Positions 3,826 to 21,869 of a DNA stretch of 64,000 nt are shown here, piece by piece. The number at the start of each line of letters is the position of its first letter. The first letter of the stretch is position 1. The notes under the pieces were generated by a model. The model did not search any database. It was not told the DNA's origin and saw only the letters and a list, made by a program, of their open reading frames with translations. A program made the position numbers and the translations under genes. The stretch comes from Sphaerisporangium perillae (GTDB lineage: Bacteria; Actinomycetota; Actinomycetes; Streptosporangiales; Streptosporangiaceae), in NCBI RefSeq assembly GCF_023276435.1, contig NZ_JALLPO010000036.1:1-64000 (forward strand). The letters run 5' to 3'.

Positions 3826-6381
3826 TCAAAGGGCGCCGTGCCGCTGGAGCCAGGCGAAGGACGCCCATCCGGGCAGCACCGGCAGCCAGAACGTGAGCAG
3901 CCGGTAGAGCAGCACGGCGGACGTCGCCACCGTGGGCGCCAGCCCGGACAGCGTCAGGCCGACGTAGAGGGCCCCTTCCACAGCGCCCAGCCCGCCGGGG
4001 GTGGGCGCGGCCGAGCCGATGGCCGTGCCGGCCAGCACGACGATGGCCACCGCCGCGAAGCTGAGCGAGCCGCCGAAGGCCCGGACGCAGGCGGCCAGGC
4101 AGACGACGAAGGCCAGCGTGAGCAGCAGCGTGCCGCTCAGCCCTTCCAGGATCTTGCGCGGCGACTGCAGGACGTCCAGTAGGCGGGGCATCACCCCGGA
4201 GAACAGCGACCGGATGCGCCCGGTGATCAGGCGGCGGAGCGGCGGCACGGCCAGGACGATCAGTACCAGGACGGCGCCGGACAGCAGCGCGATGACCATG
4301 CCACGCGAGGGGCTGACCGACGGGGCGGCCTTGATGCCGGTGAGGTAGCCGAAGAGCAGGAGCAGCAGGATGTGGCAGGCCAGCCCCACGAGCTGCGAGG
4401 CGCCCACACTGGCCACGGCGAGCCCAGGTGCGATGCCGCGCTTCTGCAGGAAACGGGAGTTGATGGCCACTCCCCCGACCGCGGCGGGCGCCACCAGCTT
4501 GACGAACGAGGCCGCGAACTGGGCCAGGACCATGGGGCCCAGCGGCAGCTTCTCGGGTACGAAGCCCCGGATCATGAGCGCCGCCGCGAGGTAGCTCAGG
4601 CCGGCCGCGACCAGGGCGACGCCGGCCCAGCCCCACTCGGCCCGGGTGACGACGTCGGCCAGGTTCACCCTGCTGAGCTGCGAGAGCAGGAAGTACGCCG
4701 CCAGCGCGCTGGCGATGATGGTCACCAGGGTGCGCGGCTGGAACCGCTCCAGGCGCACCTCCTCGACCTCGACCTGAGGCGTGAGGGCGACGATCTGCTC
4801 GCGGAGCGCGGGAAGCAGCGCCTTGTTCCTGCCGACCTGGGCGCGGGTGCCCCTGGTGAGGGCGATGCGCTGGAGCAGGGGCAGCGCCCCCGCGAGCGAC
4901 CGCTTCGGGATGACCTTGGAGGCGCACATCACCGAACGCTCGGGGCCGACGCGCAGCGCCAGGTAGGTGAGCAGCTGTGCGATGTCGAGCCGGAGCAGCA
5001 GGTCACCGGCCGCGATCTCGCCGCTGCGGGCGTCCATCAGCACGACCTCGCCGTCGCCGTCGACGTGGATGCTGTCGCCGGTGAGCCGCCGGTGGGCCAG
5101 GCGCTGGGCCTGGAGCAGCTCGACCTGCTTCCAGATCTTGATGAGCAGCTCGTCGTCCAGCTCGTCGTCGGGGACGTCCTCCAGCGCGCGCGTGTCCAGG
5201 TGCTCGTAAGCGAGCAGCGCGGCGTCGGTGCCGATCTCGCTGGTGCCGACCAGGCACGGGGTGTTCACGCCGGCGGCCTGGGCGGCGTAGGCCATGAGCG
5301 CCTCGCGCTCGAGCTCCGCGCGGAGCGAGCGGATGGCCCGGCGGCGGGTCTCCGAGCTGAGCCGGATGCCGCGCCAGAGCCGGTAGAGGACCCCGGCGAC
5401 CTGCCGGTCCCTGTCGAGCACGGTGACGTCGAACCGGCGCCCGTCGGTCATCGTCACGCCGTAGCGGCGGCTTCCCTGGGCGTCGTCGGTGATGCGCCGG
5501 GCCCTGGCGGGGACGAATGCGAGGCGGCGCAGGGCGGCGACCACGGTGCTGCCCGGTGGCCGGGTGTTGGGGCTGCCGACGACGTAGAGGGTGGCGTACC
5601 CGACGGCCAGGCCGACGAGGTAGGTCACGAAGACGCCGAGCGCGGTGGCGTCGGCGCTGGTGAACAGCGCGAACACGTCGAGGGCGATCGCCATCCACAT
5701 CATCGCCCGCCAGGTCGGGCGGCGGGAGATGCGCACTGCGGTGACGTAGGCGACGACCGAGGTGAGCAGGGTGTTGAGCGGCTCGACCTGGCGCCCTCCG
5801 GTGAGCAGCAGGCGCAGGTCGCCCGGGCCGGCCGCGGCCAGCCACTCGCCGAGGACGAAGGAGACGAGCATCCCGATGATCGCCGCGATCAGCCCTTCGG
5901 CCACCCGCAGCCCGTCGCGGTGGAACACCCGCTCGACGGCGAACGCGCTGGGCACGGCCAGCACGGCGGTGCCGGCGAGGAAGCTCGCCACGCCGATCAG
6001 CAGGTCGGGGGCCCGGCTCGTCCCGTCGGTGACGTCTCTCTCCAGGCCGTTGAGCGTCTGCTTGGCGATGAGCGCGAGCAGGACGATCGCCGCCAGTGTG
6101 AGGAGGGTGATGAAGAAGCGCAGCGCGTCGGACGGCCTGCGGATGCGCTGGGGCAGCAGCGGCTCGACGACGAGCACGACGGGATCACCGGACGCGGCAC
6201 GCGAACCCTCGGGGGTCTCCGTACCGGAGGTGGGGTCGCCGGCGGGGACGTCCGAGACGTCCGAGGCCTCCGAGGTGTCCGCAGGAGTGCGCGGGCTCTC
6301 TGGAGTCACGGAAGAACCGGCCGCGGAGATGTTCTCCCCCGCGGCCTCCTCTGCCTCGTCGCGCTCCCGTATGTCGGTCAC
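3826..6381 (-). CDS. large membrane protein: N-terminal helices, kinase-like middle, flippase-like C-terminus
   Basis: 851 residues from GTG 6381. Residues 1-75 are a low-complexity acidic/Ser/Pro cytosolic tail. About seven hydrophobic helices follow (about 85-275). A soluble middle (about 290-520) has the look of a kinase-like or phosphotransferase fold, with ERDALMAY-type and HRRLTGDSIHVDGDGEVVLMD motifs resembling a catalytic loop and metal-binding Asp. The last 300 residues are a multi-pass domain of the lysylphosphatidylglycerol-synthase membrane (PF03706, flippase-like) family, with APAAVGGVAINSRFLQKRG and PTPGGLGAVEGAL, hallmark family motifs. The family moves or modifies lipids across the membrane; the substrate here is unknown. 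No lysyl-transferase (MprF C-terminal) domain is present. It is convergent with the aldo/keto reductase. Confidence 0.85.
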   Translation of the reverse strand: MTDIRERDEAEEAAGENISAAGSSVTPESPRTPADTSEASDVSDVPAGDPTSGTETPEGSRAASGDPVVLVVEPLLPQRIRRPSDALRFFITLLTLAAIVLLALIAKQTLNGLERDVTDGTSRAPDLLIGVASFLAGTAVLAVPSAFAVERVFHRDGLRVAEGLIAAIIGMLVSFVLGEWLAAAGPGDLRLLLTGGRQVEPLNTLLTSVVAYVTAVRISRRPTWRAMMWMAIALDVFALFTSADATALGVFVTYLVGLAVGYATLYVVGSPNTRPPGSTVVAALRRLAFVPARARRITDDAQGSRRYGVTMTDGRRFDVTVLDRDRQVAGVLYRLWRGIRLSSETRRRAIRSLRAELEREALMAYAAQAAGVNTPCLVGTSEIGTDAALLAYEHLDTRALEDVPDDELDDELLIKIWKQVELLQAQRLAHRRLTGDSIHVDGDGEVVLMDARSGEIAAGDLLLRLDIAQLLTYLALRVGPERSVMCASKVIPKRSLAGALPLLQRIALTRGTRAQVGRNKALLPALREQIVALTPQVEVEEVRLERFQPRTLVTIIASALAAYFLLSQLSRVNLADVVTRAEWGWAGVALVAAGLSYLAAALMIRGFVPEKLPLGPMVLAQFAASFVKLVAPAAVGGVAINSRFLQKRGIAPGLAVASVGASQLVGLACHILLLLLFGYLTGIKAAPSVSPSRGMVIALLSGAVLVLIVLAVPPLRRLITGRIRSLFSGVMPRLLDVLQSPRKILEGLSGTLLLTLAFVVCLAACVRAFGGSLSFAAVAIVVLAGTAIGSAAPTPGGLGAVEGALYVGLTLSGLAPTVATSAVLLYRLLTFWLPVLPGWASFAWLQRHGAL

Positions 6382-16179: not shown

Positions 16180-18468
16180 TCAGCGGCTCGGGGCGGGTCC
16201 TGCGGGGAACGCCGTCACGGTGGCGCCAAGGTGGGTCGGGTCGGGGGTGTGCCTGACCAGCGGCTGGGTCAGGTGGGCGTCCTCGGAGCCCCGCGAGGGA
16301 GCCGCCTCCGCCGGGCCGCCCGCGTTCGAGGTGGCGCCGTCGGTCTGGGCGGCCACCAGGCTGGCGTACCGGCCGCCGAGGAACATGAGCTGCTGATGGG
16401 TGCCGCGCTCGACGATGCGGCCGCCGTCCACCACCAGGATGAGGTCCGCGTCACGGATCGTGCTGAGCCGGTGCGCGATGACGATCCTGGTCTGCGTCAG
16501 CCGGGCGAGGTGGCTCTCGATCGCCGCCTCGCTCTCGCTGTCGAGGTTGCTGGTGGCCTCGTCCAGCAGCAGGATCTTCGGCCGGGAGAGCAGTGCGCGG
16601 GCGAGCGCCAGCCGCTGCTTCTGGCCGCCCGACAGGCCGGCCCCCTCGGTCAGCATGGTCTCGTACCCCATTGGCATCTGCTTGATCTCGTCGTCCAGGC
16701 GGGCGATGCGCGCGGCCTCGACGATGCGCGCGAAGGAGGCGCCCGGGTCGTTCAGCGCGATGTTCTCCCGGATGGTGCCGGTGAACAGGGACGGATCCTG
16801 GGTGACCACGCCGAACTGCCGCCGCAGCGTGTGCAGGTTCAGCTCGCTCACCGGCACCCCGTCGTACCGGATCTCACCGGTGGTCGGGGTGTGCAGGGCC
16901 AGCAGCAGCCGGGCCAGCGTGCTCTTGCCCGACCCCGATGACCCGACCAGGGCCACCTTCTGGCCTGGGGCGATCTTCAGGGAGATGCCCTGGAGCGTCC
17001 AGGGAGCCCTCGGGTCGTACCGGAAGCCCACATCCCGCAGCTCGACGGCGCCGCGCAGGCGCAGGACCTCGATGCCCTCCGCCGGTTCGGGGTCGGAGGC
17101 GAGGATGTCGGAGAGCCGGTCGAAGTGCGCGCCCGCCTGCTGGAGGCTCTGCAGGCTGGACATCAGCGACGACAGCGGGGTGAGCGCGGCGACGGCGATG
17201 GCGTTGAGCGCGAGCAGTGCCCCAAGGGTGAGCTGCCCGTCCAGCACCCGCCAGGCCCCGATCCACAGCAGGCCGAGAGGGGCCAGCACGCGGATGGCGC
17301 CGAGGGTGGCCTCCAGCAGGCCCTGCGTGATCCCGCCCCGTACGTCGGCGTTCAGCTGGGTTGTGAAGTTCCTGGACCACTGCTCGACCGCGTGCCGCTC
17401 GGCCCCGGACGCCTTGAGCGTCTCGATCCCGCCGATGGCCTGGATCAGGTTGCTCTGCGTCGCGGAGAACGCCGTCAGCTCCTGTTGTGCCAGGTAGTTG
17501 ACCCGGCGGGTGGTCACGAGCAGCAGCACGATCTGCAGGAGGGCGATGCCGACCAGGCACGCGCCGAACAGCGGGTCCCGGATGAAGACCAGGATCAGGT
17601 ATCCGACGGCGAGCGGCCCGTCCAGGAGCGCCGACAGGATCTGGCCGGTGAGCATGTCCCTCAGCACGGCGACGCTGCTCGCCCGGGTCACGAGGTCTCC
17701 GGTGCCGCGCAGCGCGAAGTACCGGAACGGCAGGGCGATCAGGTGGGAGATGACTCCCCGGGTCAGCTCGGCGTCGGCGCTCGCCCGCACCGACACCAGC
17801 AGGATCGACCGCAGCGCCCCGACGACGAACTGCGTCAGCGTGGCCAGCAGCAACCCGCCGCCGAGCAGGGCGAGGAAGGCGTCCGCGCCCGTGGGCAGCA
17901 CCTGGTCCACCAGCACCTGGGAGAACAGGGGCAGCGCCAGGCCGAGCAGCTGCAGGACGATCGAGGCGAGCACGACCTGCGCCAGCAGGCCGCGCCGGCG
18001 CATGAGGAGGGTCTTCAGGAATTGGCGGCGCCAGGCGCTGGCCGCGCTGGAGCTTCCCCGGCGGAAGGCGGGGCCCGGCTCGAACGCCAGGACGACGCCG
18101 GTGAACCCCTCGTTGAACTCCTCGGCGGTGAGCCTGCGCCGCCCGGGTCCGGGGTCGACGATGTCCACCCGCTCGGGCGTCCAGCGTTCGACCACCACGA
18201 AGTGGTTGAACTCCCAGTGGACCACGGCCGGCATGGGGATGCGGGCGAGGTCGGCGGGTTCCAGGGAGAACGCCTTGGCGTTCAGCCCGGAGTCGCGGGC
18301 GCCGGACACGATGGCGAGCGCGGTCAGCCCGTCCCTGCCGATCTGGAGCCGGTCGCTCAGCTCGTGCAGTGAGATCCGGTGCCCGTGGTACGACAGGATC
18401 ATGGCCAGGGACGCGGCTCCGCATTCGGTGACCGAGTTCTGCAGGATGACCGGCACGTGCCTTCTCAT
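16180..18468 (-). CDS. C39-peptidase-containing ABC exporter of the RiPP cluster
   Basis: 762 residues in three parts. Residues 1-135 are a C39 (bacteriocin-processing) Cys protease with Cys16 in NSVTECGAAS, His in HWEFNHFVVV and Asp in VDIVDPGPG; it cuts after double-glycine leaders. A six-helix transmembrane domain follows (about 150-440). The ATPase (about 480-720) has Walker A GSSGSGKST, signature LSGGQ and Walker B ILLLDEATSNLD. One protein can therefore trim the leader and export the mature peptide. The first codons overlap the stop of the upstream gene by 4 bp, consistent with a single operon. The double-glycine leaders of the two precursors at 21.2-21.7 kb are the obvious substrates. 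Confidence 0.95.
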   Translation of the reverse strand: MRRHVPVILQNSVTECGAASLAMILSYHGHRISLHELSDRLQIGRDGLTALAIVSGARDSGLNAKAFSLEPADLARIPMPAVVHWEFNHFVVVERWTPERVDIVDPGPGRRRLTAEEFNEGFTGVVLAFEPGPAFRRGSSSAASAWRRQFLKTLLMRRRGLLAQVVLASIVLQLLGLALPLFSQVLVDQVLPTGADAFLALLGGGLLLATLTQFVVGALRSILLVSVRASADAELTRGVISHLIALPFRYFALRGTGDLVTRASSVAVLRDMLTGQILSALLDGPLAVGYLILVFIRDPLFGACLVGIALLQIVLLLVTTRRVNYLAQQELTAFSATQSNLIQAIGGIETLKASGAERHAVEQWSRNFTTQLNADVRGGITQGLLEATLGAIRVLAPLGLLWIGAWRVLDGQLTLGALLALNAIAVAALTPLSSLMSSLQSLQQAGAHFDRLSDILASDPEPAEGIEVLRLRGAVELRDVGFRYDPRAPWTLQGISLKIAPGQKVALVGSSGSGKSTLARLLLALHTPTTGEIRYDGVPVSELNLHTLRRQFGVVTQDPSLFTGTIRENIALNDPGASFARIVEAARIARLDDEIKQMPMGYETMLTEGAGLSGGQKQRLALARALLSRPKILLLDEATSNLDSESEAAIESHLARLTQTRIVIAHRLSTIRDADLILVVDGGRIVERGTHQQLMFLGGRYASLVAAQTDGATSNAGGPAEAAPSRGSEDAHLTQPLVRHTPDPTHLGATVTAFPAGPAPSR

Positions 18469-19004
18469 GAGCCGCCTCCGAGCAGCAGGGTTCCGGCCGC
18501 GACGGTCCCGCTCGGGATCACGGCCTCGCCGGACCGGCGCAGCAGCCCGTCAGGCTGCTCTCCGGTGATCTGGCAGGACAGCACGGCGAGGCGGGCGGGC
18601 CCGGTGGCCGTGGCGAAACGCTTCTTGAGCCGCTCCACCGTGACCACGGGACCACCGGGGTCGGTGACGTGGCAGCTAAGCGGCCGCGCCCGGCCCGCGA
18701 GCCGTACGGTCGCCTCGTCGCCGGCCCGAGGCAGGTCCCGGTCCTGCGGCACCTGGGCCGTGACGTCGAAGTGCGAAGCCGGCTCGGCCTGGTATCCGGT
18801 GACCATGACCTGGACGGTCACCAGGTTGGGCACCTGGACGACCGCCAGCCCCGCGCCGGCGGCGCCAAGGAGGGCGACCAGCCCCCAGAACAGGACGAAC
18901 CACGCTTTGCGGATGACCAGCGGTTTGTCGGCCTGCTGCTCCCGGACGCTGTACCGGCGCAGCGCCTCCTCGCGGTAGATCGGGCGGCTCACAGCCAGTG
19001 CCAT
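18465..19004 (-). CDS. single-pass membrane protein of the RiPP cluster (short HlyD-like adaptor?)
   Basis: 179 residues from ATG 19004 (a GTG at 18992, overlapping the upstream stop as GTGA, is an equally possible start giving 175). A short basic N-terminus REEALRRYSVREQ is followed by one membrane helix (about 34-55) and an external beta-rich part with LPRAGDEATVRLAGR. The REEALR start and the helix recall the N-terminal part of HlyD/NHLM-type membrane-fusion proteins, but the long coiled-coil is absent and the total length is less than half. Probably supports the C39 exporter. The function is inferred from position. Confidence 0.7.
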   Translation of the reverse strand: MALAVSRPIYREEALRRYSVREQQADKPLVIRKAWFVLFWGLVALLGAAGAGLAVVQVPNLVTVQVMVTGYQAEPASHFDVTAQVPQDRDLPRAGDEATVRLAGRARPLSCHVTDPGGPVVTVERLKKRFATATGPARLAVLSCQITGEQPDGLLRRSGEAVIPSGTVAAGTLLLGGGS

Positions 19005-19969
19005 TCGATCGACGCGCGGCCGCGGCGCTCGGCGAGCCAGGCCGCGAAGGCGGCACGCCCCGCGGCGGCCAGCGTCTCGGCGTCGTCCTCGGCCGGGCGG
19101 CGGTTCAGGACGGCGCCGGTGAAGAATCCGGTTCCCTGCTCGACCGGCCCGGCGACGGCGCCGGCCTCGGCGTCCCGCAGGGGCTCCGGCAGCTCGCCGG
19201 CCCACCGGTCGCCGATGGTCACCTGGGCCTCACCGGTGCTCGCCGGCAGCATGGCCAGCAGCTCCGCCGGGGTGGCGGCGGTCCACCGCTCGGAGCCGAC
19301 CGCCCAGACGGCGCGTGCCCGGTCGAACCGTGAGCGGTGCCCGGCGAGGTACTCCGGGGCGAGCTCGGCCTCCTTGCGCCGCCGGAACCTGCGCCGGCGG
19401 GCGATGCCGCCGATGTACTCCTCGAACTGCGCGGGCGACATCCCCATCTGTTCGAGCCAGGCGACGGTGGCCGCGCGGTCGTACAGGCCGCGCCCCCTGC
19501 GGAACTCGTCGGCCGCCGCCTGCAGGTCCTCGGTGGTGAGCGGCTCGTCGTCGGACATGACCTCGTTGAGGATCAGGCACTGGTCGACGATCTCGTCGTG
19601 CGGCGTCATGTCGCGGCGGGAGAGGGAGCGCAGCATGGTGAGCGCCTGCGCCACCGAAAGGTGGACGTCGTCCACGCTGACCAGCTGCCCGGCCGCCCAG
19701 TGGGTCGAGTGCTCGATCAGCCAGGGCACGCCCTCGTCGGACGGCGCGGTCAGCGCCACCGTGCCGCCGCCGGGGTGCGCGAGAAGGAGGTCGTAGTCGA
19801 CCACGGGCGTACCCGGCCGCACGTCGACGACCAGTTGCGCGCCGGCGGCGGGGTGCTCGTTCCCCCACTCCGCCGCGGCTCTGCGGGCCTCCTCCACGCG
19901 GGCACGCCTGCGCGGCAGCCTGCGCAGCAGCTCCACGCCGGATTCCAGCACCGCGCCGAAGTCACTCAT
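18989..19969 (-). CDS. putative peptide maturation system protein (TIGR04500-like)
   Basis: 326 residues from ATG 19969, with a clear Shine-Dalgarno (AAGGAGAGAG) lying at the end of the ATP-grasp gene; the two overlap by 8 bp. I recognise the overall sequence as like the actinobacterial peptide-maturation family related to PpiC (peptidyl-prolyl isomerase), which travels with ATP-grasp RiPP enzymes. Visible: SVDDVHLSVAQALTMLRSL, an acidic/helical middle (about 125-185), a basic RRRRFRRRKEAELAPEY stretch, and a C-terminal WLAERRGRASIEWHW. No signal peptide or membrane helix, so cytosolic. The catalytic role is unknown; chaperone or docking function during modification is an inference. Confidence 0.72.
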   Translation of the reverse strand: MSDFGAVLESGVELLRRLPRRRARVEEARRAAAEWGNEHPAAGAQLVVDVRPGTPVVDYDLLLAHPGGGTVALTAPSDEGVPWLIEHSTHWAAGQLVSVDDVHLSVAQALTMLRSLSRRDMTPHDEIVDQCLILNEVMSDDEPLTTEDLQAAADEFRRGRGLYDRAATVAWLEQMGMSPAQFEEYIGGIARRRRFRRRKEAELAPEYLAGHRSRFDRARAVWAVGSERWTAATPAELLAMLPASTGEAQVTIGDRWAGELPEPLRDAEAGAVAGPVEQGTGFFTGAVLNRRPAEDDAETLAAAGRAAFAAWLAERRGRASIEWHWL

Positions 19970-20936
19970 CGCTCTCTCCTTGGGCCAGCCAGTCGGCGAT
20001 GGCATCGCTGATGGGCAGCCCGGTGCGCGTCTCGACGAACCCCCAGGCTCCGTTCGGGTTGATCTCCAGGAAGACGTACTCGCCTTCGGGCGTGAGAATG
20101 AGGTCGATCGCCCCGTACGTGAGCCCGAAGGAGGCGACCAGCTCGGCGCAGCGCCTGCGCACGTCTCCGGGAAGCTCGTGCGCGGCGTACCTGACCCGGT
20201 CGTCGTCGTAGTGGCGCCAGTCCTCCCTGGCCGTCCGGGACGCCTGGGAGTCGATCTCCGCGGCGAACACCTTCTCCGCGACGACGATCACCCGCAGCTC
20301 CACGGCCTTCGGCACGTACGGCTGCAGGATCACCGGCTCGTGCCGGAGCAGGTGGCGCGAGGTCAGGTGGCGGCGGGTCAGCACGGTCGTGTACGTGCGG
20401 TGGTCGGCCCCGTCCACCGTGAAGGAGTCGGAGTTGATCTGCTTGGCGATCAGGCGGCCCTCGGCGCGCTCGTACGCCGGGACGAGCTCGGCGGGATCGT
20501 TGGTGAACACCGTCTCCGGCACCGAGAAGCCCAGGCTCGCCGCGCGGGCCATGTGGATGATCTTGTTGTGCGCCTGACGCTCGGGCTCGCGCCGCGAGGG
20601 AAGCCACCGGGCCGGGATGAGGTCCCAGGCCCCGTCGAGAAGGAACTGCGCCTGCCAGTCGACATGCGCGCGATGGGTCGGCTCCGACACGTTCGCGGAC
20701 GCCGCCGAGCGGGTGGGGCGCCTGCGCCACACCGCCGTCACCGTCGACAGATCCAGCGGGCCGTCCTCGGTGTGGAGGGTGATCCGGTGCCCTCCCGCCG
20801 AGAAGGCCGCCGTGAGCCGGCTCCTCGCGGGGAAGTCACCGCTGTCCCACCAGGTCACCGGGACGTTCCGCCGCCGTAGCTTCGGCAGCACCAGGTCGAC
20901 CGTGTCGTCCAGTCGCTCGCTCAGTATGAGAATCAT
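19962..20936 (-). CDS. ATP-grasp ribosomal peptide maturase (graspetide ligase, MvdD-like)
   Basis: 324 residues from ATG 20936 (an in-frame start at 20993 would lie inside a terminator hairpin and is rejected). The N-terminal domain has AVWRRRP, a peptide-binding landmark of the family; the ATP-grasp domains follow with KIIHMARAASLGF, QPYVPKAVELRVIVV (with the conserved ELRV), DSQASRTAREDWRHYD, and the metal-binding end GAIDLILTPEGEYVFLEINPNG. The family makes omega-ester or omega-amide side-chain links between Glu/Asp and Ser/Thr/Lys of a precursor. The two precursors upstream carry a conserved Ser, Lys and Glu in their cores, so a cross-linked macrocycle is expected. Soluble; ATP-dependent. 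Confidence 0.9.
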   Translation of the reverse strand: MILILSERLDDTVDLVLPKLRRRNVPVTWWDSGDFPARSRLTAAFSAGGHRITLHTEDGPLDLSTVTAVWRRRPTRSAASANVSEPTHRAHVDWQAQFLLDGAWDLIPARWLPSRREPERQAHNKIIHMARAASLGFSVPETVFTNDPAELVPAYERAEGRLIAKQINSDSFTVDGADHRTYTTVLTRRHLTSRHLLRHEPVILQPYVPKAVELRVIVVAEKVFAAEIDSQASRTAREDWRHYDDDRVRYAAHELPGDVRRRCAELVASFGLTYGAIDLILTPEGEYVFLEINPNGAWGFVETRTGLPISDAIADWLAQGESDE

Positions 20937-20970
20937 GTTCCAGCTCGCCTCGCTCGCGGTATCGCGCCGC

Positions 20971-21006
20971 ATAAAAGCGGCGGAGCGGGACAAGCCCGCT
21001 CCGCCG
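20971..21006 (-). terminator. intrinsic terminator/attenuator between precursor and enzyme genes
   Basis: On the minus strand a perfect 12-bp GC stem (21006-20995 with 20989-20978) closes a 5-nt loop and is followed by CTTTTAT. It lies 34 bp before the ATP-grasp start. Partial read-through would give much precursor and little enzyme mRNA. Confidence 0.75.
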
Positions 21007-21052
21007 GAACGGAAGGAGATCGGCGGACGGTCCGTGCGACCGGCCTCGGCGG

Positions 21053-21123
21053 CCGTAGGCCCCCTCGGGCGCCCCCGTACGCCCCCGTACGCCCGCTTGG
21101 CCCCCGTACGCCCCCTCAGGCGC
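21053..21123. repeat. GC-rich repeat cluster in the RiPP spacer
   Basis: CCGTAGGCCCCCTCGGGCGC (21053-21072) recurs with two changes at 21104-21123, and between them GCCCCCGTAC occurs at 21071, 21081 and 21100. It is non-coding in the frames I could judge. It may be a slipped-replication product. Confidence 0.6.
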
Positions 21124-21178
21124 CGCGTGCCACCCCCCGTGCACGCCCCCGTCGCGCCCGCCGACCCTTCCTGATCGA

Positions 21179-21197
21179 GACCCGCGTGACGCGGGTC
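21179..21197 (-). promoter_or_regulatory. hairpin at the stop of precursor 1
   Basis: GACCCGCG-TGA-CGCGGGTC forms an 8-bp stem that overlaps the stop codon of the shorter spacer's precursor. There is no T-run; it may protect the precursor mRNA 3' end. Confidence 0.45.
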
Positions 21198-21339
21198 AGT
21201 TGTTGGTGCCCTCCCACTCGGAGGGCTTGCCGCCGGTGTACCAAGAGACGTGCATCCGGCCGCCGGCCACGTCGCCGAGCTCGGCGTCGGTCAGCTCGGC
21301 ACCGTCGATGGCAAGGTCGTTCAGCATGATCTTCGACAT
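21196..21339 (-). CDS. RiPP precursor peptide 1 (double-glycine leader)
   Basis: 47 residues, too short for usual gene callers. The leader (1-27) starts MSKIMLNDLAIDG and ends ELTDAELGDVAGG, a classical double-glycine C39 site with the acidic LTDAEL helix. The core (28-47) begins RMHVSWYTGGKPSEWEG and ends TNN. Against precursor 2, the leader is identical and the core keeps VSW, GGKP, EW and the terminal NN, with Ser30s, Lys38 and Glu41 as candidate cross-link residues for the ATP-grasp enzyme. Shine-Dalgarno GGGGGGAAACCGA lies before ATG 21339. An upstream hairpin (21353-21368) is conserved with precursor 2. Confidence 0.88.
   Translation of the reverse strand: MSKIMLNDLAIDGAELTDAELGDVAGGRMHVSWYTGGKPSEWEGTNN
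21257..21339 (-). repeat. 83-bp duplicated leader, copy 1
   Basis: Identical base for base to 21587-21669. It covers codons for the whole shared leader and the first bases of the core. The flanking 5'-UTR also stays similar (hairpin, TCG-TTT), so one precursor gene is a recent tandem duplicate of the other, with selection or drift acting on the core only. Confidence 0.95.
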
Positions 21340-21352
21340 TTCGGTTTCCCCC

Positions 21353-21368
21353 CGCCGCTCGCGCGGCG
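21353..21368 (-). promoter_or_regulatory. 5'-UTR hairpin before precursor 1
   Basis: CGCCGC-TCGC-GCGGCG, six-bp stem and 4-nt loop, immediately upstream of the Shine-Dalgarno. The identical hairpin stands at 21685-21700 before precursor 2. Confidence 0.55.
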
Positions 21369-21424
21369 AACTCTCTCATTCGTTGTGATGCGCAGGTCTC
21401 CGGGCACCGTGTGCGACCGGGACC

Positions 21425-21480
21425 CCGGCCGGGCTCCGCGATGAAGCCCGGCCGGTCCACGACGTCCTTGTGACGTCGTG
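21425..21480 (-). promoter_or_regulatory. two strong hairpins between the precursor genes
   Basis: CCGGCCGGGCT (21425-21435) pairs perfectly with 21445-21455 (11 bp, 9-nt loop). CACGACGTC (21458-21466) pairs with 21472-21480 (9 bp, 5-nt loop). Neither has a T-run. They may stabilise the upstream precursor mRNA or lower read-through. Confidence 0.6.
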
Positions 21481-21531
21481 TCCCTCTCAGCGCGGAGCCG
21501 GCAGGCCCCGCTCAGCCGCGGTCCGGCTGGA

Positions 21532-21669
21532 TCAGTTGTTCACCCACTCGGCGGGCTTGCCGCCGATGGTCCAGCTCACCGACCAGCGGCCGCCGGCCAC
21601 GTCGCCGAGCTCGGCGTCGGTCAGCTCGGCACCGTCGATGGCAAGGTCGTTCAGCATGATCTTCGACAT
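21532..21669 (-). CDS. RiPP precursor peptide 2 (double-glycine leader)
   Basis: 45 residues and the first gene after the candidate promoter. The leader (1-27) is identical to that of precursor 1, down to the DNA level over 83 bp, and ends DVAGG. The core (28-45) is RWSVSWTIGGKPAEWVNN. The pattern VSWxxGGKPxEW is shared with the other core, so its Ser, Lys and Glu are probably the modified residues. The Shine-Dalgarno GGCGGGAGGG is stronger than that of precursor 1. The cut after AGG would be made by the C39 domain of the exporter. Confidence 0.88.
   Translation of the reverse strand: MSKIMLNDLAIDGAELTDAELGDVAGGRWSVSWTIGGKPAEWVNN
21587..21669 (-). repeat. 83-bp duplicated leader, copy 2
   Basis: Perfect copy of 21257-21339; see that entry. 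Divergence begins exactly at the start of the core. Confidence 0.95.
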
Positions 21670-21684
21670 CTCGTTTTTCCCTCC

Positions 21685-21700
21685 CGCCGCTCGCGCGGCG
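21685..21700 (-). promoter_or_regulatory. 5'-UTR hairpin before precursor 2
   Basis: Same CGCCGC-TCGC-GCGGCG hairpin as at 21353-21368, in the leader of the mRNA just before the Shine-Dalgarno of the first precursor. Confidence 0.55.
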
Positions 21701-21752
21701 AAATCTCGTTCCCCTGGTGTCCCCCCGGGGATCCGTCGTGCTTGTGATGACG

Positions 21753-21818
21753 AAGTTAGGCAGCCCGACTTGGATCACACTTGTTGATGACTGTGGGCAT
21801 GACTTGCGGCCAACTTGA
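21753..21818 (-). promoter_or_regulatory. RiPP promoter with SARP-like direct repeats
   Basis: On the minus strand four heptads with CAAGT at their centre: TCAAGTT and GCAAGTC separated by 4 bp (11-bp period), then 16 bp, then ACAAGTG and CCAAGTC, again 4 bp apart. The last heptad ends exactly 8 bp before TAACTT (21758-21753), a good -10. Tandem heptads with a 4-bp gap whose 3' copy lies 8 bp before the -10 are the published geometry for SARP activators. No SARP gene is in this window. Confidence 0.6.
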
Positions 21819-21869
21819 GAAGCCTCTGAGCTGCGGGAACATCGCGAGAACAGCTCTGAAGAAGCCGAA

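Follow-up and report, generated by a model that had tools for sequence, protein, structure and literature searches.

A six-gene cluster of Sphaerisporangium perillae probably makes and exports two small graspetides, each closed by a single ester. The cluster lies on the minus strand (16180-21669) of the window, here meaning the whole analysed stretch of 64,000 nucleotides (positions 1 to 64,000 of contig NZ_JALLPO010000036.1), and encodes, in that order, precursor 1, precursor 2, an ATP-grasp synthetase, a TIGR04500 protein, a membrane protein, and an exporter. In the reading judged probable, synthesis depends on a partner protein, each core would carry one macrolactone between Ser/Thr5 and Glu14, a C39 peptidase domain would cut after Gly-Gly, and two monocyclic peptides would be exported.

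The gene set is like that of rosaritide (mirABCD of Micromonospora rosaria; graspetide group 21), for which Carter et al. (2026) name a precursor, MirA, together with MirB (TIGR04187), MirC (TIGR04500), and MirD (TIGR03796) (PMC13097080). As in the rosaritide cluster, a synthetase, a TIGR04500 partner, a C39/NHLM-type exporter, and a precursor with a Gly-Gly leader stand in one cluster. The genes of the window are:

21532..21669, minus strand: precursor 1, 45 amino acids, leader ending VAGG, core RWSVSWTIGGKPAEWVNN (TIGR04497 38.2 bits, cut-off 32; 26-row alignment)
21196..21339, minus strand: precursor 2, 47 amino acids, leader shared with precursor 1, core RMHVSWYTGGKPSEWEGTNN (TIGR04497 33.7 bits, cut-off 32)
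19962..20936, minus strand: putative ATP-grasp graspetide synthetase, MirB-like, DWR at residues 239-241 (TIGR04187 244.7 and TIGR04185 232.3 bits, both below cut-off)
18989..19969, minus strand: TIGR04500 partner, MirC-like, with an N-terminal domain and a SurA-like domain (TIGR04500 323 bits, cut-off 180)
18465..19004, minus strand: one-pass membrane protein, N-terminal motif IYREEALRRY; the window copy has an additional beta domain at its C terminus; may assist in export
16180..18468, minus strand: C39 peptidase-containing ATP-binding cassette (ABC) exporter, MirD-like (PF03412 1.1e-35, PF00664, PF00005)

An earlier note on this DNA had placed six minus-strand genes here, and the coordinates bear this out. 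Its two precursors of 47 and 45 residues with leaders ending VAGG are present and both exceed the TIGR04497 cut-off, its ATP-grasp maturase and C39 ABC exporter are supported by family and PDB sequence matches, and the protein that it had called TIGR04500-like scores as a true member of that family. By gene coordinates, the synthetase gene overlaps the TIGR04500 gene by 8 nucleotides, the latter overlaps the membrane protein gene by 16, and this in turn overlaps the exporter gene by 4, which favours a single operon.

Precursors and core types

The two window precursors have in common a leader of 27 residues ending in VAGG, and the first 83 nucleotides of their genes are identical. The cores that follow Gly-Gly are 18 (precursor 1) and 20 residues long (precursor 2); over their first 16 codons, 33 of 48 nucleotides agree and six amino acids differ. 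The pair would be either a young duplication or the outcome of leader conversion, with the core diverging. A search of precursor 1 against PHROGs gave no match up to E 0.1.

The comparison covered 107 loci (the window, L032-L037, and L070-L169), of which 102 are distinct: L032 and L114, L033 and L125, L034 and L099, L036 and L103, and L037 and L129 are doubles. This set leaves out the shorter TIGR04500 matches without an N-terminal domain, as well as some partial matches. With a leader model, precursors were identified at 72 of the 107 loci, and a looser pattern search in 31 of the remaining 35 gave candidates in several; the four left out of it were L103, L125, and L129, which are doubles, and L140, where a later search for a precursor found no match. 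About eight core types were named by eye: A (that of the window), A2, B, C, D, E, F, and G, in addition to a rosaritide-like core at L071. Every one of the 26 precursor rows of types A and A2 matches TIGR04497 at E 0.01 or better, as do six of eight precursors of other core types, one of these six above the cut-off.

Do the core types follow the phylogeny of the enzymes? In the tree of TIGR04500 proteins, A2, B, C, D, and G each form one side of a branch, and A, E, and F require three, four, and three changes, respectively. Over all labels there are 19 changes, against a mean of 74.6 when labels are shuffled; for the synthetases, the corresponding figures are 17 and 72.0. The shuffles test clustering only, and 13 rows in each tree carry no type. 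One synthetase-partner lineage in the family of the window thus serves about eight core types.

The type A set comprises 19 core rows (16 unique), drawn from 17 linked clusters, one of which has two precursors, and from one orphan precursor. The earlier note had described a two-precursor cluster. This is true of the window and untypical of its relatives: two precursors occur in one of the 17 type A clusters, that of the window itself, and in two of the seven type A2 clusters, and an obligatory pair was rejected on these counts.

Two further observations concern precursors of individual relatives. In S. fuscum (L033, about 4690-4840), the precursor frame is open and has ATA in place of the ATG start of its relatives. 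In Streptosporangium carneum (L036/L103), the search of the cluster revealed no precursor; one of type A is located on a separate contig (L201, G622:C7), where the 3 kb examined contain no synthetase.

The predicted ring

Which residues would be joined? In all 16 unique type A cores, a Ser or Thr precedes the first Trp (core position 5) and a Glu precedes the second (Glu14). Their spacing is 9 in 15 cores and 10 in one. The Glu column is invariant in all 26 rows of the type A and A2 alignment, and this Glu is the sole acid in 12 of the 16 unique type A cores. The Ser/Thr-Glu pair recurs in all eight unique type A2 cores, at a spacing of 9-10. By contrast, position 11 is variable: Lys in 12 of the 16 unique type A cores, Arg in L032 and L096, and Gln in L035 and L119. 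The conserved Ser/Thr and Glu, set against a variable Lys11, point to one ester and not to a Lys link.

The earlier note had proposed links from Glu to Ser, Thr, or Lys, with a loss of 18 or 36 Da. The Ser/Thr-Glu part is retained, narrowed to one predicted ester per core, and the Lys part is given up, Lys11 being unconserved. Lys11 was rejected as the donor on the same ground. The ring would then be a Lys11-Glu14 macrolactam (i, i+3) only in an improbable case. Both window cores do contain Lys11, and graspetide synthetases can also make lactams (PMC13097080); four of the 16 unique cores have Arg or Gln at this position, however, and those of L032 and L096 have no Lys anywhere.

The proposed mechanism runs as follows. 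The synthetase would act in complex with the TIGR04500 protein, which would hold the leader, the core, or both; the synthetase would phosphorylate the sole conserved Glu at core position 14. The conserved Ser/Thr at position 5 would attack the activated Glu14 to give one macrolactone per core, a change of -18 Da. A Gly-Gly turn may set Ser5 opposite Glu14 across a hairpin with a two-residue turn. The C39 domain would cut after Gly-Gly, and the ABC part would export the resulting pair of related single-ring peptides, 18 and 20 residues long. The ester, the two residues that it joins, the cleavage site, and the export are all predictions from sequence; the need for a partner in the window system is suggested by homology with MirC.

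Several findings weigh against a single ester made by a MirB-like enzyme. Extra acids occur in four of the 16 unique type A cores: Glu16 in that of precursor 2 and in L105 and L117, and three acids in L197; a second ring is conceivable in these four. Among the eight unique type A2 cores, seven have several acids and one has a single acid. The synthetase, scanned against NCBIfam in a longer frame reaching 20993, falls below the TIGR04187 cut-off (244.7 against 350 bits), and it is 38.6% identical to the synthetase of the rosaritide-like locus L071. The additional acids bear on the idea that two or more rings form per core, through Glu16, the C-terminal carboxylate, or further Ser/Thr residues, as in rosaritide, where three macrolactones join Ser8/Ser9/Thr11 and Asp22/24/26 (PMC13097080). 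Several links are typical of known graspetides (PMC13097080), but window core 1 offers only one side-chain acid, as do 12 of the 16 unique cores, and multiple rings are considered unlikely.

Synthetase, partner protein, and exporter

By homology, the synthetase belongs to the MvdC/MvdD/SAV_5884 type of graspetide synthetases with an intact DxR motif, its NCBIfam scores lying below the cut-offs. Its best PDB sequence matches are AMdnB (7m4s, 9.4e-51), MdnB (5ig8, 1.1e-48), and MdnC (5ig9, 1.3e-31), with further matches to 7mgv, 9bou, and 7drm; the microviridin enzymes MdnB, MdnC, and AMdnB are thus its nearest solved relatives. The DWR motif is intact in 17 of 17 type A synthetases, and beside the gene lie precursors of leader-core form with a conserved donor and acceptor, as in graspetide clusters. 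A weak match to the RimK family (TIGR00768, 44.2 bits against a cut-off of 143.4) raises the question of whether the enzyme, making no cross-link, instead attaches a different molecule to Glu14 or the C terminus. One acid per core would fit such a conjugation. It is very unlikely nevertheless: the best matches are macrocyclases of the MvdC/MdnB/MdnC type, and the constant Ser/Thr would be left without an explanation.

Membership of group 21 is judged at an alignment score of 70. In a similarity network of 101 synthetases, built from the present loci and distinct from the published network, all sequences form one component at alignment scores of 70 and 75. The network splits at 80, with the window apart from L071; the direct score between these two is 54.0.

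The single-ester reading includes a need for the TIGR04500 protein. For rosaritide, MirB modified MirA only in the presence of MirC, the two copurified as an active complex, and for graspetides characterised earlier no partner protein is known to be needed (PMC13097080). The window partner is encoded with the synthetase, as in group 21 and MirC-dependent systems, and the two genes overlap.

What kind of protein is the partner? An AlphaFold2 model from seven sequences (window and L032-L037) has a predicted local distance difference test score (pLDDT) of 82.0 and a predicted template modelling score of 0.64, with residues 79-92 below 50. Its best Foldseek match is Cj1289 (3rgc; E 1.2e-7, template modelling (TM) score of the query 0.30), followed by SurA and PrsA. 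The TM scores are low, and the model therefore supports the kind of fold alone. A modelled fold nearest Cj1289 and SurA is a likeness to MirC, for which the rosaritide paper names the structure of Cj1289; its authors see no similarity of MirC to the peptidyl-prolyl isomerase (PPIase) domain of Cj1289 (PMC13097080). A sequence search of the partner against the PDB gave no match up to E 1, and no parvulin PPIase domain was matched in Pfam up to E 1. An isolated PpiC domain (3gpk) matches the model at no better than E 0.13. The SurA/PrsA-type fold matches themselves carry parvulin PPIase domains, at low TM scores. PPIase activity of the TIGR04500 protein finds no support here, though the protein may have it.

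The exporter combines the C39 domain (PF03412) with ABC_membrane and ABC_tran domains, and matches the NHLM-type family TIGR03796 at 642 bits, below the cut-off of 853. A C39 exporter was found in 16 of the 17 type A clusters (the exception is L119), which argues that the association of the genes is not due to chance.

Relation to described graspetides

Rosaritide has three donors and three Asp acceptors (PMC13097080); the window type, by contrast, has one donor that is always present and one Glu. The rosaritide core pattern SSxT ... DxDxD is absent from the window cores, although this pattern may mark rosaritide rather than all of group 21. The window also differs in having two precursors and, between partner and exporter, a membrane protein that is absent from the mir gene list in the text of that paper. 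Unlike the microviridins, which have several interlocked rings, the window precursors show no PFFARFL leader motif. Both are members of TIGR04497 (GRASP_targ_2, 'putative ATP-grasp target RiPP', that is, ribosomally synthesized and post-translationally modified peptide), whose family description gives no product or ring pattern.

Makarova et al. (2022) list TIGR04500 among the families accompanying ATP-grasp loci (PMC8939145). In their survey, two clusters within larger sets of new precursors allow only a single ester (PMC8939145), so that single-ester cores appear unusual but not unheard of. Literature searches returned no graspetide report for names beginning Streptosporangi-, none on TIGR04497 or GRASP_targ, and no phrase 'single macrolactone' among graspetide papers. 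A product of the window core type was not found described in the literature; the core may stand in supplementary precursor tables. The earlier note had suggested that the system may be new. The gene set has been published for rosaritide (PMC13097080), and the precursor family has a name, but the core differs. What appears new is therefore the core variant with its single-ester prediction, the gene set and the partner principle being already known.

Distribution of the cluster

Three draws of genomes, each of which includes that of the window, give the range of the partner. In the draw from the family of the window, 76 of 297 genomes have a TIGR04500 match at E 1e-30 or better (68 over the cut-off); the class draw gives 15 of 394 at E 1e-40, and the phylum draw 2 of 396 over the cut-off. 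Among the 11 genomes of the genus, 4 encode a protein that matches the TIGR04500 protein of the window. A synthetase was found in 102 of the 107 loci; L147 and L154 have fragments only.

The window genome itself (G000, 9.3 Mb) contains a second TIGR04500 cluster on contig C30 (L070), with a different core, AKSQVIVIHGGHTHTSGDSN, that has one acid only. A third ATP-grasp gene of the same family lies on C26 (L200:7187-8101); it lacks DWR in the alignment, and no partner or precursor was found in 15 kb.

Sister lineages at the same chromosomal site

Eight genomes have related genes at the chromosomal site that the cluster occupies in the window, flanked by a 2-oxoacid dehydrogenase E2 gene and a Dabb gene (the latter about 3 kb more distant in L141 and L147). 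On the TIGR04500 tree these eight loci form one clade (support 100), and their TIGR04500 gene stays open. It stands without a synthetase in L129, L136, L139, and L140, and with a synthetase fragment in L147 and L154. A synthetase is present at the site in L138 and L141, where a precursor and an exporter were not found.

Could a lone TIGR04500 gene work without any synthetase? This idea is unsupported, as all four genomes concerned hold a related synthetase on another contig. Around three of these (L196, L198, and L199), the 13-15 kb examined revealed neither partner nor precursor nor exporter; the fourth genome has a full type A cluster on its other contig (L197). A whole-genome search of the three with the type A/A2 precursor alignment, in which 150 of about 200 candidates were scored per genome, gave nothing at E 0.05 except in G513, whose two leader-like matches both lie at its other clusters.

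The catalytic motif also varies. L138 and L141 lack DWR, L198 has DRR in its place, and L199 has DRP; the motif is intact in L196 and L197. The synthetases of L138, L141, L198, and L199 are open and carry Asp instead of Asn in the EINPNG stretch. No precursor was found beside any of these four, and a partner gene is kept in each genome. They may be dead enzymes in another use or may be in slow decay.

Pairwise ratios of nonsynonymous to synonymous substitution (dN/dS; Nei-Gojobori), which average the time before and after loss and in which high G+C biases dS, are 0.29-0.42 for the four lone TIGR04500 genes and 0.20-0.57 for those of L138, L141, L147, and L154, against 0.20-0.45 for intact type A partners. 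The values of up to 0.57 in L147 fit decay. For the synthetases, the ratio is 0.20 between L138 and L141 and 0.29-0.34 among L196, L198, and L199. Constraint may have continued after the loss.

Might the window cluster likewise be a relic in the course of being lost? In relatives, neither precursor nor exporter was found at the same site, and the synthetase is missing, broken, or devoid of DWR. In the window, all six genes are open with intact motifs, and the synthetase has dN/dS of 0.11, 0.19, and 0.20 against three relatives of the same genus, which makes a relic highly improbable.

A broader proposal is more speculative, and we regard it as doubtful. The window type would represent a minimal single-ester class of graspetides, in which a hairpin of about 18 residues is stapled by one Ser/Thr-Glu macrolactone beside two conserved Trp residues and is made by a synthetase-chaperone pair. 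In the sister lineages, the same pair, deprived of precursor, exporter, and catalytic motif, would have taken on a different role, its genes still open and constrained. If the main single-ester reading is right, the window type would offer a very simple substrate for a partner-dependent synthetase, with one donor, one acceptor, and about 18 core residues. The role of MirC, whether it folds the synthetase or holds leader and core, would become directly testable with natural variants from many genomes. In the published account of rosaritide, growth inhibition was not seen in a test of the truncated product (PMC13097080).

Membrane protein and surroundings

Scanned over 18465-18992, the membrane protein gave no NCBIfam match even at E 1 and, in Pfam, only DUF4307 below threshold (13.8 bits, cut-off 27); it had no PHROGs match up to E 0.1. 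A first phmmer round found relatives in 21 of the 107 loci (17 distinct), of types A, A2, D, and F, all with a motif resembling [IVL][YF]R-E--LRR near the N terminus and a single hydrophobic segment. In several core types, a membrane protein with a REEALRR-like motif sits between partner and exporter. Among these matches, the extra C-terminal domain is limited to the window, L032, L033, and L034, with their doubles. A model of this domain (pLDDT 73.7) bears a weak likeness to the membrane-fusion proteins MacA, EmrA, and BesA; the best E is 0.03, none reaches 0.001, and other folds are mixed in.

One further feature lies between the two precursor genes:

21430..21535, minus strand: strongly folding stretch 3' of precursor 1; possible terminator or stabiliser of the mRNA

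This stretch has a folding energy of -63.7 kcal/mol (z -4.89), which one of 200 shuffles equalled. The stretch 3' of precursor 2 (21150-21200) folds in an ordinary way (z -0.75). Between precursor 2 and the synthetase gene, positions 21070-21152 hold G+C-rich tandem repeats of 10-12 bases. The upstream neighbour of the cluster is a 2-oxoacid dehydrogenase E2 gene, and on the other flank lie a small Dabb-type gene and then an acyl-CoA dehydrogenase gene, all three named from their translations alone.

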